Shown in pieces: positions 2,541 to 64,000 of a DNA stretch of 64,000 bases. The notes beneath the pieces are model-generated. The model had not been told where the DNA came from, made no database searches, and saw only the letters and a program-made list of their open reading frames with translations. The translations under genes were made by a program, and so were the position numbers. This DNA comes from Mesaphorura yosii (taxonomy: Eukaryota; Arthropoda; Collembola; Poduromorpha; Tullbergiidae): NCBI GenBank assembly GCA_009869945.1, contig WIXG01000251.1, forward strand, positions 52,780-116,779, read 5' to 3'. Position 1 is the stretch's first letter. Each line of letters opens with the position of its first letter.

Positions 2541-3684
2541 GTGGATAAGATGACGTCTCGGTTCAAAAGCGAGTACATTTCAAAGGTTACAACCACAGCG
2601 TTCCATCTGAAACCGATTCATTTCCGTACAAAAGTTATTCCTGACGAGAATGGAGAAGGCTTCAGGGTTGAGCACATCATCGAAACGAGACGGCAATTTG
2701 TACAACGTGTGATTACGGTTTCATGCCAAATCTTGGTACGTTGTATGTTATTTGGATATGGCTTCTGGTTTGATGTGATCCATCCTGAGCTGGACAAAGT
2801 TGAACGGTTCACATTTTATATTGTTGTCATCAGTGACATCATGGCAACCATTGTCATGTTGGTAATGAATTTCTTTGGGGAAATATACAGCGACTTAAGC
2901 GAGACAACTGTTATCGTAGAGCGATATCTGCGCAAGGTTCATGGGTTGCGTGAAAAGGACGGTGCAGAAAAGTATCTGAAGGCATTGATAATTGTCATGG
3001 CAAGCGTGATAGCCTGTGTGCCATTCATTACTATCAATCTGGTACAATTGGAGGTTCACTTCTATGGACAAGCCAAGACTCCATACGCCATCGGAGCCAT
3101 TGTGTTTGCGTTGGTTGCAATGTTTCTCATCGCTACAAATTGGTTGCTGGTCTTCTTGTGTTTACAAGGTGCCATCGTATACGTCAACTCCACACTACGA
3201 TGGCTCAACATGCTTCGTTGGGAACCGGACATGGAAACTGAGAAAAAGGACAACTTCATCCTCGCCTACCGTATGCATCAAATAATTCACATCAGAGTCA
3301 CACAGAACTCGAGTGCCATCATAGCAATAGCCGTCTGTGCGGACGCTGTGCTCATGATCATAATTTTGGTTGTAATGATTGGATTTCCATCCAAGCTCAG
3401 CTTGTACATGATTTGGGCATTTGGTTCAACTTTTCTGGTTGTTGGCTACAAAACTTCTTCTGGATTTGTCCACGTACTTGGCGGAATTCCCAAAATCATT
3501 TCTACGGAATGATTGGACTCTGACTCCGGTACAAGTTTGAGCTTTGAAGACGTGTTCACTACTGCAGCTCAAGATTGGTCCATTCTCAGTCATCTCGAGG
3601 GAAACATTTCTATTTCTGATGAGTGACATTGTTGTCTCACAGTCGGTTGGAATCCTGGTGGACTTGAAGCTAACAAGTGGTTAA
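2541..3684 (+). pseudogene. Gustatory-type 7TM chemoreceptor pseudogene (GR copy 1)
   Basis: This single-exon copy is closely related to the receptors at 10088-11239 and 16531-17760 (shared LRWLNMLRWEPDME, YRMHQIIHI and GAIVYVNSTLRWLN). The first ~290 residues are open and carry the expected hydrophobic helices. Three lesions then break the C-terminus. The first is a 5-bp deletion near 3437-3446 (GTTGTTGG where the paralogue has GTTGCAATGTTGG), which shifts the frame. The second is a 12-bp deletion at about 3484 (GGAATTCCC for GGAATGTTCAGCAGAATTCCC), removing CSAE. The third is CGA to TGA at 3538-3540. Beyond these the family C-terminus is still legible to 3684. A working product is unlikely because the last helix and conserved tail are lost. 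Confidence 0.85.
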
Positions 3685-8273: not shown

Positions 8274-9316
8274 TTATAACATGATACATTCATGAACTTT
8301 GAGGTACTTTTTTGTCAATTTGTAAACTTTTTTCGATAAGTAAACAATTTTAGTGCAAATAGATTTTTGAGTTTTGTAATGATAATGATGATAGACTTAA
8401 GATGATTTGTTATAAACTATTTTTGACTGATACTAAAGTATGCATTAAAATTGTACAATAGGAAATGAGTTTATTATCATCGTTATCAGTGGCAAAAATG
8501 TGTGTGTTTTACTTTTGCGTAATGTGATATTCACTTTTTCTCTCCTCTGCAAGCAAGCACACATTCTTAATTGAATGATTCATTCTTTTCTTCCCAGGAA
8601 AATGTACAACTGCAGATAGTAAACTGGTATTTCTATCATGCACCTTTTATATGTTTAACATCAGAAAACTCCAGGAAAATGTAACCCATCATCACGATTC
8701 ATGGTATAATGTAAAACTTCTCCAGAACCAATTTAATTCCGAAAGGAAGGTATGCACTAAGGGGTGTCCTTTATGTGATGGATTATTCTTCTATGGACTA
8801 AGGCCTATTAATCGCAAAAATAAAAAATTGTGGCCCAAAGACAAACCTTTAGTCTTGAAAAAAAAGGAGAGAATGAGGCTGTGATCTGTGGTGACAAGCA
8901 GTGCAGAGGAGGCTGTATGTTAGGCACGTGTGAAACTTGGATGGAACTTGGAGCTGAGATTGGATTGAAGATTGGACGGCCGGTCGCCGCTGCTGCGTTG
9001 TTGGGGCAGCTTTGGAGTGTTCGGGACGGGTGCCATCTCCGCCTTCCTCGCATCAGTGTCTTCCCTGCATTGATCAAAGCAGAACAATTTTCTTCTAACT
9101 ACGAAAACAGACATGGACTGACCCACCACTTCATTATCGCAGAATGACAATGCGGGATCATGTGTCGCTTATAACCTCCAGGGTGTAAAATTCGCGAATG
9201 CGCTTTCAACTTAGCTTTATTGTTACATAATAAAGATTTGTTATATAATTGTGATTTATTCAGTGTATTTTGAATTCAGTTATTTTAGTGTGGAAAGAAG
9301 TACTGAGAAAGTAATC
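8274..9316. other. AT-rich intergenic stretch, nothing supported
   Basis: Strongly AT-rich to about 8650. Short open frames from 8651 to 9150 have poor composition and no motifs, and overlap each other on both strands. Confidence 0.45.
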
Positions 9317-9977
9317 ATGGCACAAGTGTTAAAAAATAATGGACATGGGAAACTTCTGCCCTGTCGAGGCTATTCGTATGAATTTGTAAAGACTAGGTTG
9401 GAGAAGAAAATATGGCCCTGCATTCAATGTCGGTACAAGGGTTGCTTGGGTTGCATCCACACTGCTGAGTTCATCCCAGAAAATGAAGGAACAGTAGAAG
9501 TTTTAAAGGAAACCGACAACCATAATCACACACCAGATCCAGCGTCTGGGAAGAAGAAAAGAATCTTGGCTAATGTTAAAGAGACGACAGCTACTTCAAC
9601 TGACTCAACCGCAGGAGTTATCGCGATGGGTATAGAAGGGACATCGATAGCATCAAGAGGTATTGACTGTTGGGAATTAACTTATCAACTTTCACTGCAT
9701 ACCTACTTGATTAGTCATTGCCCTCTTACCATTCCTTATGTTACTCATCCATTACGCAGGCAAGTTACCTAAACTGGACTCCATCAAACGAAGTGTTCGC
9801 TATGTAAGGCACGTGAAATAACAAAGCAACTCACCTTCGCCAAGCACACGTGCTGAATTAATCCTACCAGAACTGTCTAAACTCAAAAATGACGAGGAAT
9901 TTCTATTGTTTGACTCTGGCAACAACGATTAGTGCATTGTCATCCTTGATACCGACCAGACACTGGACGTTCTGTAA
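9317..9977 (+). pseudogene. FLYWCH zinc-finger / MULE transposase relic
   Basis: The ATG at 9317 opens a FLYWCH-type zinc finger: GYSYEFVKTRLEKKIWPCIQ, then C-x-x-C spacing, and a closing HNH (TDNHNHTPDP). FLYWCH domains occur at the N-terminus of many MULE-derived proteins. Exon one ends at 9659, and a 100-bp intron (9660-9759) joins to GKLPKLDSIKRSVRYVRHVK, then a stop at 9819-9821. The frame is readable past it (STRAELILPELSKLKNDEEF, LLFDSGNND) with two more stops (TAG in NND-stop-CIVILDTDQ, final TAA at 9977). The catalytic DDE core is absent. It could be a decayed transposase front or a decayed domesticated FLYWCH gene. It is a different lineage from the intact MULE at 11.7 kb. Confidence 0.6.
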
Positions 9978-10087: not shown

Positions 10088-11239
10088 CTACGCAGATTGC
10101 TTCAATCCCACTAGAATATCAACTGCGTGTGACACAACAATGTCACTCATCAGAAATGGAAATGTTTCCCTCGAGATGACTGAGAATGGACCAATCTTGA
10201 GCTGTAGTAGTGAACACGTCTTCAAAGCTCGAACTTGTACCGGAGTCAGAGTCCAATCATTCCGTAGAAATGATTTTGGGAATTCTGCTGAACATTCCGC
10301 CAAGTATGTGGACAAATCCAGAAGAAGTTTTGTAGCCAACATTGCAACCAGAAAAGTACAACCAAAAGCCCACATGAAATGAAAGTTTAGTTGTGATGGA
10401 AATCCGATTAGTATGACAAAGATTATAGTCATGAGTATTGCATCCACGCAGAGGGCAAATGCAATGATGGTACTTGTACTCTGCGTGACTCTGATATGAA
10501 TGATTTGATGCATGCGGTAAGCAAAGGTGAATTTGTCCTTTTTCCAATTTTCCATGTCCGGTTCCCAACGAAGCTTGTTGAGCCATCGCAGTGTTGAGTT
10601 GACATACACAATCGCGCCTTGTACAAAGATGAAGACTATTACCCAGTTCACAAAGATGACAAACGTTTCAACTCCAGCAAATACAATGGCTCCGATCCCG
10701 TACGCTGTCTTCATCTTTGCATAGAAGTGAACCCTCAGTTGAACCAGGTTGAAAACAATGAGCGGGATGCAACCTGTGACACTGGCCATGGCAATTATCA
10801 TTCCCTTCAGATATTTCTCTGCACCATCCTTCTCGTTTCCGGTCAACCCATGAATCTTACGCAGTAGTCGTTCCATGGTCACAAATATTATGCTCAAGTC
10901 ACTAAACATTGACCCAAAGAATGTGAGTACGAGTAGACCAAATTTGGCCATGATCTCAATCATCACAACAAAATAAAATATGAAATGTTCAACTTTGTCC
11001 AGTTCAGGATTGTTCAAATCCGACCAGAATCCGTAGCCAAGAAGGGTACAGCGGTACGCGATGTGAAGTGAGACGACGAGCATCCGTTGTACAAAATGGG
11101 ATCTGTTTTCAATGATGTGTTCGACTCTGTGACCACCATCGTCATGAAGAACCACGTTTGTATGGAAATGGATCAGCCGGAGGTTGAATCCAATGGTTGT
11201 GGCCTTTGCAACAATCTGACAAGACAATTTGGATGTCAT
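10088..11239 (-). CDS. Gustatory-type 7TM chemoreceptor (GR copy 2)
   Basis: Intact single-exon receptor of 383 residues from the ATG at 11239, chosen because MTSKLSCQIVAK matches the start of the paralogues. An upstream in-frame ATG at 11281 would add 14 residues. Hydrophobic helices include FIFYFVVMIEIMAKFGLLV, GMIIAMASVTGCIPLIVFN, VIFVNWVIVFIFVQGAI and FALCVDAILMTIIFVI. The central loop LRWLNKLRWEPDMENWKKD and the C-terminal block TLTPVQVRALKT...SVISRETFPFLMSDIVV are the family hallmarks. Proteins of this shape are insect-type chemoreceptors (GR/OR superfamily) in sensory-neuron membranes. The ligand cannot be inferred. There is no intron at the position where copy 3 has one, which suggests intron loss here or gain there. 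Confidence 0.8.
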   Translation of the reverse strand: MTSKLSCQIVAKATTIGFNLRLIHFHTNVVLHDDGGHRVEHIIENRSHFVQRMLVVSLHIAYRCTLLGYGFWSDLNNPELDKVEHFIFYFVVMIEIMAKFGLLVLTFFGSMFSDLSIIFVTMERLLRKIHGLTGNEKDGAEKYLKGMIIAMASVTGCIPLIVFNLVQLRVHFYAKMKTAYGIGAIVFAGVETFVIFVNWVIVFIFVQGAIVYVNSTLRWLNKLRWEPDMENWKKDKFTFAYRMHQIIHIRVTQSTSTIIAFALCVDAILMTIIFVILIGFPSQLNFHFMWAFGCTFLVAMLATKLLLDLSTYLAECSAEFPKSFLRNDWTLTPVQVRALKTCSLLQLKIGPFSVISRETFPFLMSDIVVSHAVDILVGLKQSA

Positions 11240-11646
11240 GTCGCTTGTCCACCTTGAATATTCTTGGCACTTTCCACGCATTCGTGGAAAATGAAGCCTT
11301 CATGGCTATCCGAAATCCAATTTAGAGAAATTGAGACCGCACTCAGAATTGTAGAGTAATTTCGAAAGCCACTCGAGTAAAATGGTTACACTTAACCGAC
11401 AAATAACACACGCAAGCATTAGTCCCAAAATTGTACAGGAAAATGTGCAGCGTTTATTGCTCATTATTAAATGTTCGGTGCTGAGCAAACGCCGGCTCGT
11501 ATGTGAAATCGAAATAAAGTATTTATGCTAGCTGGACAGAAATGATGATTGCAGTAGACTTTATAGAATGCAACCAATCCGCAACTAACTGTTAACTATA
11601 TACGTAATTTACTACGGAGTTCAGGCTCTTTATTAGACTGTCTGCT

Positions 11647-11736
11647 TCAAGTCAACCAAATGTCCACAATTTGTGACACGACAATGTCACTCATCAGAAA
11701 TGTAAATGTTTCCCTCGAAATGACTGAAAACGGACC
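11647..11736 (-). pseudogene. Chemoreceptor C-terminal fragment beside the MULE
   Basis: About 90 bp read GPFSVISRE-FTFLMSDIVVSQ on the minus strand, matching the C-terminal tail of the GR family above. The fragment ends exactly where the transposon's 5' target duplication starts. The sequence on the far side of the element (13979 onward) shows at most weak similarity to the next part of the receptor, so the fragment was probably already degraded when the element inserted. Confidence 0.7.
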
Positions 11737-11745
11737 AATATTTAT

Positions 11746-11837
11746 GAGATAATATTATGCGCTCTGCTATTTTATTAAAAACCACCAGCTAAATGATTTT
11801 AGAGTCCAGCTGATGAATCGACCTGCTAATTTGTTTT
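11746..11837 (+). repeat. MULE left terminal inverted repeat
   Basis: Aligns without gaps to the reverse complement of 13876-13969 over the first ~70 bases, with a looser match to about base 92 (GCTAATTTG near the inner end). The outermost 8 bases are the least conserved. Confidence 0.85.
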
Positions 11838-11918
11838 CTCTATCTGCTATTAAAATAATACCGGCAGAGTTCAATTCGTGTTTTTTAGACTGACAGACAA
11901 CAATAATTTCTGTCAGAA

Positions 11919-13781
11919 ATGGCTGAAGCAATTCAAACGCTTAATTTTTCACGTGATTCGACCGAAAGTGATGTAGAAAAGGTGAAACCAGCAAAGAAAC
12001 GGAAGATTCTTCATTGGGAGAAGCTGGATACTTTTGGGACCAAACAAGCTGCTGAAGAATTTCTAAAGGAAAAGAAACAGTGGAATGTGCTCAAAAAATA
12101 CACAACAGCTGATGGAACTAATGTCCAGTACGTGTGCCGGCATTCTGCTGTCTGTTCCTGTCGAAGAAGAATTTTCATTCCTGCTGACTCCAGTGGAGTA
12201 ACAATTTTTGGTACAGGAAACGCACATGATCATGCGACAACTAAGGCTACCAAAGGTTTGCACCTTCCTCAGATAATCTTTTCCTGATAATGTAACACAG
12301 CTACTCTAACAATGGTTTACATTATTACAGGCCTGCCGGAGAATGTGAGACCCGAAATTATTGCACTGTACCAGTCAGGAGTACGGAAACCGAAACAAAT
12401 CATCGACGCCCTAAAGGCACGTGGATTCGCGGAGCCAGAGTACCAGCGCCTGACAAATTTTCTTGCTCTACACCGGAAGTCAGTGGCCATTCCAATACTG
12501 TCGCTGGGTGAACTTGAAGCTTATTGCTCTACAAAGTCTGTTGTTCCTGAAGACCAGAACACAGCTTTCGTTGTTGCCTCAACATTTGAAAGTTCAAGTA
12601 CTGCGTTTGGAATATTTGTATCCACTACTCGACTCCTCAGCATGATGAAGATGTCATCAGCAATACAAGCCGATGCCACTTACAAATTAAATTGGCACGG
12701 GTTTCCTACACTTGTAATCGGAACATCAGACATGGACCGGAAGTTCCACCCGGGTGGAATTGCGGTCACTACCTCAGAAACCACAACTGACTACGAGTTC
12801 CTATTCCGAGCAATTCATAAGGGAGTTGGTATTAACTACGCACCTCGCATCTTAATCGCGGATGCGTCAGACGCAATAACAAATGGCTTCCAAAATGTTT
12901 TTGGAAATGAAATTACAAGAATCTACTGTTGGGCACATGTAATACGAAACACGGACAAAAAATTATCGCTGATCAAGGACCCAAAAGCAAGAACTTCCGT
13001 GCGCGAAAGCATCATAGCCCTTCAATTAGCAAGGTCACCGGAAGAATTTGAGTTCGCCAGCATGCTGTTTTTGAAAAAGTACCACAAGCCTTCCACAAGT
13101 GATTTCATTGAATATTTTAAAGCAGAATGGTTGGACCATCGCTCTGGGTGGTATGAAGGCTTGGTCAATCGAGCACCTAGCACCAATAATGGGCTGGAGT
13201 CCACCAACAACTACATCAAAGCTAACGGGACCTTTCGGGAGCGTTTACCAATCGCAGATTTTATGAACTTTTTACTTCGTCAGTGCCAAATTTGGTCGGA
13301 GGAACGCGATGAAAGCAATGTCAACTGCAAAACATTTTCCATAACGCCAACCGTTACCTTAACCGTGCAAACCAGTGCACATAATTGGGTCGAAAGCAAG
13401 CCAGATGTCAAATACCGTCGCCAAAGTGACACATGCACACATTTTTACGTTTCTGCGTCAGGGCAGCCGAATTTAAAAGAGGATGACATTGAAAAGTACC
13501 AGAGGTCAACCTCATGGCAATCAAATCGGTCTTGGAAATATTTTGACACCTACAAGTCAGGAATGAGCAGGCTTCACCTTGTAGAGTTTTTCCACAACAA
13601 CTGGCTCGGATCAACATGTACCTGCCCAGCTTACTTAAAGACATATTTGTGTAAACATATTGTTGGCTTGGCTGTAAGACAGAATCTCTTTGAACTAAGA
13701 CCAGAGGCCAAGAATATTCCGTTGGGGGTGAAACGAAAAAGAGGAAGACCCTCAAAGTCAACAGGTGCCTTTAGTTTTTGA
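11919..13781 (+). CDS. MULE transposase (zinc finger, DDE, SWIM, AT-hook)
   Basis: Cut-and-paste transposase of the Mutator superfamily, about 595 residues. Exon one (11919-12255) and exon two (12331-13781) join in phase across a 75-bp GT...AG intron (ATTKATK|GLPENVRPEI). The N-terminal ~110 residues form a WRKY/GCM-type or FLYWCH-like zinc finger (YVCRHSAVCSC, ending HDHATT). The DDE core shows the first Asp in QADATYKLNWHGFPTLVIG, the second in ILIADASDAITNG, followed by the MULE-typical YCWAHVIRN, and the Glu in TNNGLESTNNYIK. A SWIM zinc finger follows (CTCPAYLKTYLCKHIVGL, CxC...CxH), then a basic AT-hook tail (KRKRGRPSKS). All key residues are present and there is no internal stop, so activity is plausible. 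Nested in the TIR-bounded element. Confidence 0.88.
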
Positions 13782-13875
13782 CTTATTTTGACGTTATTTC
13801 CTTGAAAATGTTCAATATATACTTGCAGGTGGTTGTACGAATTTTGCAGACCTGATTTAATAAAAATGTAACTTG

Positions 13876-13969
13876 AAAAACTAAATTAGCTGAAGAAATC
13901 ATCAGCTGGACTCTAAGATCATTTCGCTGGTGGGTTTTAATAAAATAGCAGAGCCCATAATTCGGTCCC
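13876..13969 (-). repeat. MULE right terminal inverted repeat
   Basis: Reverse complement begins GGGACCGAATTATGGGCTCT and mirrors the left repeat. It is followed directly by the second AATATTTAT copy. Confidence 0.85.
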
Positions 13970-14152
13970 AATATTTATCTGAAGAGGCGGCACAGGTTTA
14001 GGCTGGAACTAGAGTGCAGGACCGGATGGAGACCCGAATTTCTTCTGCAAGTTCTGTATGGAGGCAAGTGAGCTGCGACTATGATCAAAATTTTATTACT
14101 TTATTGGTTTATGTCATGATTTATCGAATATTGGTTGTAATGAGACACACAT

Positions 14153-16530: not shown

Positions 16531-17760
16531 TTAGGTTGTTTGCTCTAACCCAACCAGAATATCCACAGTTTGTGACACGACAATATCACTCATCAAAAAT
16601 GGAAATGTTTCCCTCGAGATGACTGCGAATGAACCAATATGAAGTTTTAGTGGTGGAGATACCTTCAAAGCCCGAACTTGCACTGGAGTCAGGTTCCAAT
16701 CATTATGAAGAAACGATTTTGGAAATTCAGCTGAACATTCTGTCAAGTAGTTGCCCAAATCCAAGATGAGTTTCGTAGCCAACATTCCAATCATGAAAGT
16801 AGCACCAAATACAAACATGAAAGTCACGTCGAGTTTTGATGGGTATCCAATCAATAGAACCAAGATTGTGATCATGAGCACAGAAACACTGCATAGAGCT
16901 AATGCTACTATGATGTCTGTACTTTGTGTAGCTGCGATATGAACAATTTGATGCATACGATAGGCAAAGACGAATTTGTCCTTTTTCCCACTTTCCATTT
17001 CTGGTTCCCAACGAAGCATATTGAGAAGTCGTAGTGTTGAATTGACATAGATGATTGCACCTTGTACAAAGTAGAAAACCATTATCCAATCTATTGTGGT
17101 GCTAAACGTTGCACCCACAGCCCACAAAATGCCTCCTATCCCATATGGCATCTTGATTTGACCAAATACGTGTACGTTGAGTTGAACCAGTTGAAAGCTG
17201 ATGAATGGTACAAAGGATTGCACGCTGACTATAACAGATACCATTGTCTTCAAATACTTTTCAACGCCATCCTTTTTCTTTCCATTTAGGCCATGAATGT
17301 TTCCTATGGATTCATACGAAAATAAATTTTGGTCAGGTCAAAGTGAATGGTCAAGGCCAAGAGTCGATTAATACTTACGCTGATGGAATTCCATCCGAAC
17401 AAATGTTTGGACTAGATCGCTAAATATGCGTCCAAAAATATTACAGACGAGCAGAACAAACGTGCCCATGACTTGTACTATTACAACAACGTAAAATATG
17501 AATCTTGACACTGGCTGCAGTTCTCCGGCATGAGCGAAATCATACCAGATTCCATACCCTATGAAAGAACTTCGCCAAAAAATTTGGAATAAAACAGCCA
17601 GAACGCGTAGAATAAATTGACCCGTCGTTTCAAATACAAATTCAATTCTAAAGCCTACTTTCTTCTCTGGTACCACTTTTGTATGGAAATGAAGGAGTCT
17701 CATTTTAAAAGCTATGGATGTAAGTTTTGCAACAAATTGACTTGTCACTTTGGATGTCAT
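16531..17760 (-). CDS. Gustatory-type 7TM chemoreceptor (GR copy 3)
   Basis: Intact two-exon receptor of 384 residues. Exon one (17760-17379) starts MTSKVTSQFVAKLTSIAF. A 75-bp intron with a GTAAGT donor (17378-17304) joins FHQR|NIHGLNGKKKDGVEKY. Exon two (17303-16531) carries SVIVSVQSFVPFISFQLVQL, the conserved loop LRLLNMLRWEPEMESGKKD, helices LALCSVSVLMITILVLLIGY and FMFVFGATFMIGMLATKL, and the family tail (CSAEFPKSFLHNDWNLTPVQ, then ISRETFPFLMSDIVVSQ). Length matches copy 2 (383). A seven-helix, insect-type chemoreceptor topology is inferred from hydrophobicity only. It is the most divergent of the three, especially in the N-terminal loops, and ligand and expression cannot be inferred. 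Confidence 0.8.
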
Positions 17761-63105: not shown

Positions 63106-64000
63106 CAGCAAGTTCTGTCCATTTCAATTTTCAACCAGCGTGCTTTTGGGCCACCATTTTTTATTTTTGTGATTAATAAGCCTTAGTCCACTAAAAAAAA
63201 TCCGTCAAAAACAAACTCCAAAACTTGAATCACTAGGATCCCGGAGCCGGGTGAAGTCTGACACACGATTTTTCAACATTTCCCTGGCAGTGCTATCGAG
63301 TCTTAGTGTTCCCATAAAATAGCCCTATTTGCATAGAAAACAACCGTGGGAGACCCGTCTCGAAATTCCATCCCAGCTTCGAGCTATGAGTGTTCAAAGC
63401 CTGACTCGATAAATTTGACAGCTCATAACAAATGCTTGCATACGAATTTCATGTTAGGGTTAAGTGAGCTCTTGACATGTGATTAATACGTACGAAATGA
63501 GATGGGTTGGTATGCTGTACAAAACTACCTGTAGTAATTAAAAAATACGAGTTCCAAAATTAATAGTTCATCGATCATGAATATTAAGGAGTTGTATATT
63601 GAGTTCTGTGATGCGAAATCCCTTCACCATTACTCCTTAACAACAATTCCGGCTAAGTCAATGCCGTATCTAAAGAAATAATCTTCTTGTGCTCGGAATT
63701 ACTTGCGAGGGTACATTCACCCCCTGGTCAGCCTCAAGAATTGGGTCGTTGGATAAAAATGACATCGTCACTTTAGCAGCGCTGAAGTGGGGAAAAAATC
63801 TGAATTAACTCACAAATGCAGTTCGAGCATGGAAACAGTAAGAGGATCTCCAGCCCAGAAACCATGAAACGAGTTCAACGAGGCGGTGGATCCAGATTTC
63901 AGCGTTAGAAAATCTCATTCTTAGTCGGCAGAGTTCAACCTGCCGCCTAGGACGCTGAGACTGACATGTTCACAAATCCTGACGCGAACGCTTTAGCAGC
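63106..64000. other. Intergenic to window end, nothing supported
   Basis: AT-rich, no open frame with family features on either strand. A gene cut off by the window edge cannot be excluded. Confidence 0.4.

Follow-up and report, generated by a model that had tools for sequence, protein, structure and literature searches.

A structurally complete, single-copy MULE with a predicted intron in its transposase gene in an arthropod genome

The window analysed here, a 64,000-nucleotide stretch of a Mesaphorura yosii contig, very probably contains a structurally complete arthropod MULE that is present as a single copy, that lies between 9-bp target site duplications (TSDs) at the tail of a receptor relic, and that retains its reading frame, catalytic residues and intron intact; its function is predicted from that of its family. 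The element occupies window positions 11746-13969 (2,224 bp) and is flanked on both sides by a perfect 9-bp repeat, AATATTTAT (Table 1). By the example of its family, the spliced 595-residue DDE transposase would bind the terminal inverted repeats (TIRs) of ~90 bp through its zinc fingers and AT-hook, would excise the element, and would reinsert it with a 9-bp staggered cut. An initial annotation had described a structurally complete MULE in an arthropod genome, and the TIRs, the TSD, the domains and the frame all bear this out. It had also called the element probably autonomous, which is plausible because everything needed is present, although the assembly has only this copy and no TIR-sharing derivative was found there.

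Borders and insertion site

Aligned without gaps from their termini, the left and right TIRs are identical at 75 of 92 positions and mismatched at 17, with agreement at 9 of the outermost 14, in keeping with the initial reading of TIRs of about 92 bp with mismatches at their outer ends. The inverted arms at 11754-11840 and 13875-13961 (87 nt) share 85% identity, and the TIR local alignment scores 113, where 1000 single-base shuffles reach 36 at most. The literal direct repeat around the element is 11 bp long (CCAATATTTAT), but an 11-bp TSD was dropped in favour of the perfect 9-bp duplication annotated initially, which is the best reading because the left CC is native host sequence in the paralogues of the target and because the sister families have 9-bp TSDs and ends that begin with G. 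The probability that two shuffled 45-bp flanks have a 9-mer in common at any place is 0.004. Perfect 9-bp TSDs flank members of three sister families, C271 (ATTTATTTC), C749 (GACTTTAAT) and C1049 (CTTTTATAA), which have the same build as the window MULE; these and C175, whose TSD matches at 9 of 10 positions as judged by eye, are 2.17-2.31 kb long. No TSD was seen at C283, which is internally short (1,177 bp). The MULE superfamily is characterised by long TIRs and TSDs of 8-11 bp, and the window element has both (~92 bp and 9 bp, respectively).

Table 1. Features of the window MULE and its insertion site (window coordinates)
Feature	Position	Strand	Remarks
Host target: C-terminal piece of gustatory-receptor-like relic	11633..11745	-	82-84% identity to paralogues 16531-16640, 10098-10198, 3571-3670
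Left TSD, AATATTTAT	11737..11745		Uninterrupted single counterpart at paralogous gustatory-receptor-like sites
Left TIR, starts GAGATAATATTATG	11746..11840	+	
Transposase exon 1 (112 codons + 1 nt)	11919..12255	+	C553 homologue, 54% aa identity
N-terminal zinc-finger-like C73-x5-C79...H103-x-H105, FLYWCH-like	12135..12233	+	Motif; no Pfam match here
Phase-1 intron, 75 bp, GTTTGC...TTACAG, splits Gly codon	12256..12330	+	C553: 59-bp GT-AG intron, same codon and phase
Transposase exon 2, including stop codon	12331..13781	+	
Catalytic D227 codon	12672..12674	+	
Catalytic D290 codon	12861..12863	+	
Catalytic E402 codon	13197..13199	+	
SWIM zinc finger CTCPAYLKTYLCKH, residues 542-555	13617..13658	+	PF04434, E 1.6e-4, 21.5 bits vs cut-off 19.6
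AT-hook-like KRKRGRPSK, residues 580-588	13731..13757	+	Pfam 11.9 bits, below cut-off 17.4
AATAAA, possible polyadenylation signal of transposase gene	13859..13864	+	
Right TIR, starts (reverse strand) GGGACCGAATTATG	13875..13969	-	
Right TSD, AATATTTAT	13970..13978		

Searched against the genome, the left flank matches itself, three places on the same contig and one elsewhere. The three same-contig matches are the C-terminal ends of the paralogues listed in Table 1, which we predict to encode gustatory receptors. Homology to these paralogues reaches or crosses the left 9-mer and ceases at the start of the element; two of the three align through the 9-mer and six further bases, and the third stops within the 9-mer. 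The similarity of the right flank to the paralogues is not significant (scores as high arise in 413 and 889 of 2000 shuffles), so the paralogous site backs the left border and a target present in one copy, and a two-sided empty site is not claimed. The gustatory-receptor-like gene set of the window lies on both strands, at 2541-3670, 10088-11281 and 16531-17760, and Pfam gave no match in the three gustatory-receptor-like ORFs scanned. A 173-aa ORF at window 9251-9772 has a FLYWCH finger (Pfam 2.7e-6); at the protein level the genome contains 32 further matches to it, 16 of which have stops, so that it is probably a fragment of a different repeat family.

The transposase

The spliced two-exon frame encodes 595 residues without an internal stop, and the initial annotation of a transposase with intact DDE residues and SWIM finger is sustained by the unbroken frame, by D227, D290 and E402, and by the Pfam matches. 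The three acidic residues are separated by 62 and 111 residues, and a CxxH motif (CWAH, C312-x2-H315) is present, all of these having been assigned by motif and by alignment with relatives and not by structure. The MULE domain PF10551 is matched over positions 2-99 of the 99-residue profile (E 3.4e-11; 43.9 bits versus a cut-off of 27.6). The AT-hook, also annotated as intact, holds as a motif, as KRKRGRP is present and either it or a near variant is found again in other MULE families, but its Pfam score is under the cut-off. The initial annotation did not mention the FLYWCH-like N-terminal finger (Table 1). A FLYWCH finger gave no Pfam match in the window copy, and among the N-terminal pieces of four relatives scanned there is a single match (C305; E 0.0015, 19.1 bits), below the cut-off of 23.6. 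Comparison of the transposase with viral contigs gave six pattern matches and no relatives, and a profile search against PDB gave no matches.

Copy number, sister families and alternative readings

At the DNA level the window MULE is a single copy in the 93-Mb assembly, copy counts of this type being lower bounds. A query with its 94-bp left end returns that end and the right end of the same element; the full-length element matches itself, its TIRs and, in C100, one 181-bp stretch at 69% identity; and a 26-bp TIR pattern, with as many as three mismatches allowed, has one site in the genome. The initial annotation had proposed a search for near-identical copies and for non-autonomous derivatives sharing the TIR, and neither was found in the assembly. 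A collapsed repeat is unlikely, because the window copy is unbroken inside its 116,779-bp contig, whereas the multi-copy C1049 family breaks contigs. In the same search C271, which has an unbroken spliced frame of 601 aa, is likewise a single copy at high identity, with C749 as its best other match (68-71%). With exon 2 as the query there are 66 protein-level matches, including the window copy itself; 34 have stops, and nearly all of the 66 are fragments. The tree branch of the window copy is 0.10 long, whereas those of its four nearest relatives, of which three have stops and one is a fragment, measure 0.43-0.68; the alignment behind the tree was anchored on the query, however, and such an alignment can make the branch of the window copy too short.

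The sister family C1049 (C1049:9492-11731) has an unbroken spliced frame of 593 aa and at least three insertions, its further copies being assembled as ends only. Its left end is repeated at 100% identity at C785:1-103 (103 bp) and C929:15321-15421 (101 bp), which are contig ends with different flanks, and its right end is present at C893:16787-16908 with one mismatch in 122. We regard C893 as the other side of the C1049 insertion because it carries the partner TSD, the left flank being in C1049 and the right flank in C893 with identity at 9 of 9 positions. Of the four contigs, three are broken 101-122 bp into the element and the fourth stops 2 bp beyond it. The family has thus multiplied recently, and it is the clearest sign of recent mobility that we met. 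Although the left ends are identical between sites, the left and right TIRs of C1049 itself share only 88% identity over 50 bp, so the mismatch between ends is inherited there; a left/right TIR mismatch, which is often read as age, can pass to identical young copies. By analogy such mismatches cannot date the window copy, and its imperfect end symmetry, a trait that sister families have as well, is not by itself a sign of age.

Could the window MULE nonetheless be an old, silent insertion, with TIRs that have drifted apart and a frame that survives by luck? The TIR mismatch of 17 in 92 and the single copy without derivatives would fit such a history, and the identity of a 9-bp TSD is on its own weak evidence of youth, but we consider it unlikely. 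If the TIR mismatches reflected neutral decay since insertion, the coding sequence should have gathered ~8.3 stops, and it has none (P of none 2.4e-4, indels uncounted). The identical C1049 left ends at three sites (101-103 bp), set beside that family's mismatched TIRs, also count against it, as do the stops in the 34 protein-level matches, although at least those of C1049 and C271 fall in an intron. Age was therefore not taken from the TIR mismatch, since the young C1049 copies are mismatched too and the window frame lacks the expected stops, and the initial suggestion that the element had possibly been inactive for some time, which was drawn from its outer-end mismatches, is not supported, the more so as outer ends look side-specific across families. 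It is highly improbable that the transposase has been domesticated as a host gene kept by selection. A single copy with an unbroken 595-aa frame would suit a host gene, and so would a dN of ~0.32 against saturated dS with C553, which is also expected of a transposon lineage; dS is saturated in seven of the eight relatives compared and 2.8 in the other, and dN/dS is uninformative. Domestication would be recognised by loss of the TIRs and TSD and by conservation among orthologues, but both TIRs and a perfect TSD are retained, the copy sits at a receptor relic, and other families of this genome show the same structure as transposons.

The remaining alternative, which is very unlikely, concerns the intron and reads the coding region not as one spliced protein but as two unspliced ORFs of 122 aa and 489 aa, the second starting at a separate ATG (12312). 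The in-frame exon-2 ATG does lie inside the proposed intron, two-ORF MULEs are described in six arthropod species (PMC13359780), and the window donor site GTTTGC looks weak in our judgement. However, the nearest relative, C553, has an intron at the identical codon and phase (Table 1), which upholds the 75-bp intron proposed initially, and in C305 the two parts read straight through, joined by a single Gly codon; C1049, C271, C231 and C175 are likewise continuous there. The position, residue 113, is readable in six of 14 relatives, of which C553 has the intron and the other five are without it. Although 22 GT/AG pairs leave an open frame, the pair that delimits 12256-12330 is the one that agrees with the relatives, and aa identity with C553, 54% in exon 1, is 55-60% in exon 2. 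A single spliced transposase is thus the reading that we retain.

Introns and ends across families, and known animal MULEs

Transposase introns occupy four positions among the MULE families of this genome, at residues 113 (window, C553), 163 (C305), 208 (C305, C887, C231) and 421 (C1049, C271, C658, C283). Each intron is 59-75 bp long and GT-AG, its removal yields a homologous continuous protein, and none of the four positions is seen to have an intron outside one clade. At three of the positions the intron is in phase 1 and interrupts a Gly codon; at 208 it is in phase 2 and interrupts an Arg codon. Position 163 is readable in nine relatives, one of which has an intron (C305, 72 bp); C887 is unreadable there because its match begins at this point, behind an acceptor-like TTTTTCACAG, and it may share the C305 intron. 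Position 208 is also readable in nine relatives, with introns in three by direct splicing (C887, 63 bp; C305, 65 bp; C231, 68 bp), the automatic script having shown only C887 and missed C305 and C231, whose protein matches ran into the intron. At position 421, readable in ten relatives, introns are present in C1049 (60 bp), C271 (65 bp) and C658 (66 bp) and absent in six, and C749 has 7 nt extra; C283, unreadable by the script, has a 70-bp intron on direct splicing.

In the tree, a branch with support of 100 has the window copy and C553 on the same side, C305 and C887 group with 98, C231 joins them with only 65, and the five families of the 421 clade have support of 100. A history of four gains needs fewer events than one of losses from a four-intron ancestor; for plant CACTA transposases, intron loss has been favoured (PMC4158355). 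The MULE families may have diverged in other hosts. We offer only tentatively, and with some doubt, the proposal that the MULE transposases of one compact arthropod genome gained spliceosomal introns repeatedly and in different places, and that the element ends carry side-specific outer sequences. If true, the lineage would be a small natural record of intron gain within a transposon. The differing intron positions make gain versus loss in transposases testable in one genome.

The ends themselves are suggestive of side specificity across families. Over the outer 12 bases of six two-ended elements, comparisons of right ends with right ends have a mean of 8.67, left with left 6.4, and own left with own right 6.5, and the true left/right labelling is the best of 32, for a small set that is not independent and whose ends were set by eye. 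C283 was counted despite its lack of a TSD and its length, and C553 (one end) and C658, C887, C455, C305, C231, C479, C259 and C100 (termini unclear or not found) were left out. The left end of C553 is a counter-example, as it resembles right ends more.

Among described animal MULEs, Muta1 of Aedes aegypti has two exons and transposes in yeast, mutation of D, D or E abolishing its activity, and Muta5 has three predicted exons (PMC5225508). The initial statement that intact animal MULEs with an intron are much less documented than plant ones stands as to their number, but Muta1 and Muta5 show that they are not new. Muta1 resembles the window MULE in its two-exon transposase (504 aa), long TIRs, 8-9-bp TSDs, and DDE and CxxH residues, but it is 3,198 bp long with eight near-identical copies and more than 300 putative derivatives, whereas the 2,224-bp window element is a single copy with none found. 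It also differs in having 145-bp TIRs with subterminal tandem repeats, and it is among 13 families with a predicted FLYWCH finger, whereas the window element has a SWIM finger and an AT-hook-like motif (PMC5225508). Muta6 of Aedes aegypti, compared by its description, is alike in its C-terminal SWIM finger and in being the sole family of 14 without derivative elements (PMC5225508).

Chen et al. (2026, PMC13359780) report 305 arthropod MULE types with intact TIRs and a complete transposase, and the word "intron" is absent from the main text of that article. The window MULE is like these types in its TIRs (~92 bp; 20-95 bp in most species) and its D-D spacing (62; generally 60-76), and at 2.2 kb it is within their length range of 1.4-10 kb, although below the commonest lengths of 2.5-5 kb. 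It is unlike them in its D-E spacing of 111 residues, as against 120-135 in eight of 12 clades with alignment gaps counted, and its single-copy family lies outside the 5-88 copies per species given there (PMC13359780). Phantom, Ghost and Spectre are MULE groups found in arthropods and were compared by description (Dupeyron et al. 2019, PMC6446971); SWIM is listed for Ghost and for some Phantom elements (Phantom being group 20 of that study), and the Phantom TSD is 8-10 bp. No description of the window MULE was recognised in the literature searched. The kind, an animal MULE that contains an intron, is already known and this single-copy element is new, bringing one more clearly bounded member with an intron to the sparsely studied animal MULEs.

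An arthropod host is supported by TTAGG arrays in the genome (40 overlapping placements, and none for the reversed control) together with a JHBP-domain gene. Within contigs C900, C936, C1051 and C1061, short TTAGG arrays occur at several internal sites and look as though other sequence had broken them up. A 61-bp inverted repeat with 93% identity (L046, oriented 41-101 and 307-367) lies just upstream of the C305 transposase, and the window itself contains a 46-nt inverted pair, also at 93% identity, at 8794-8839 and 63145-63190, the two members of which are 54 kb apart and are probably copies of a dispersed repeat.
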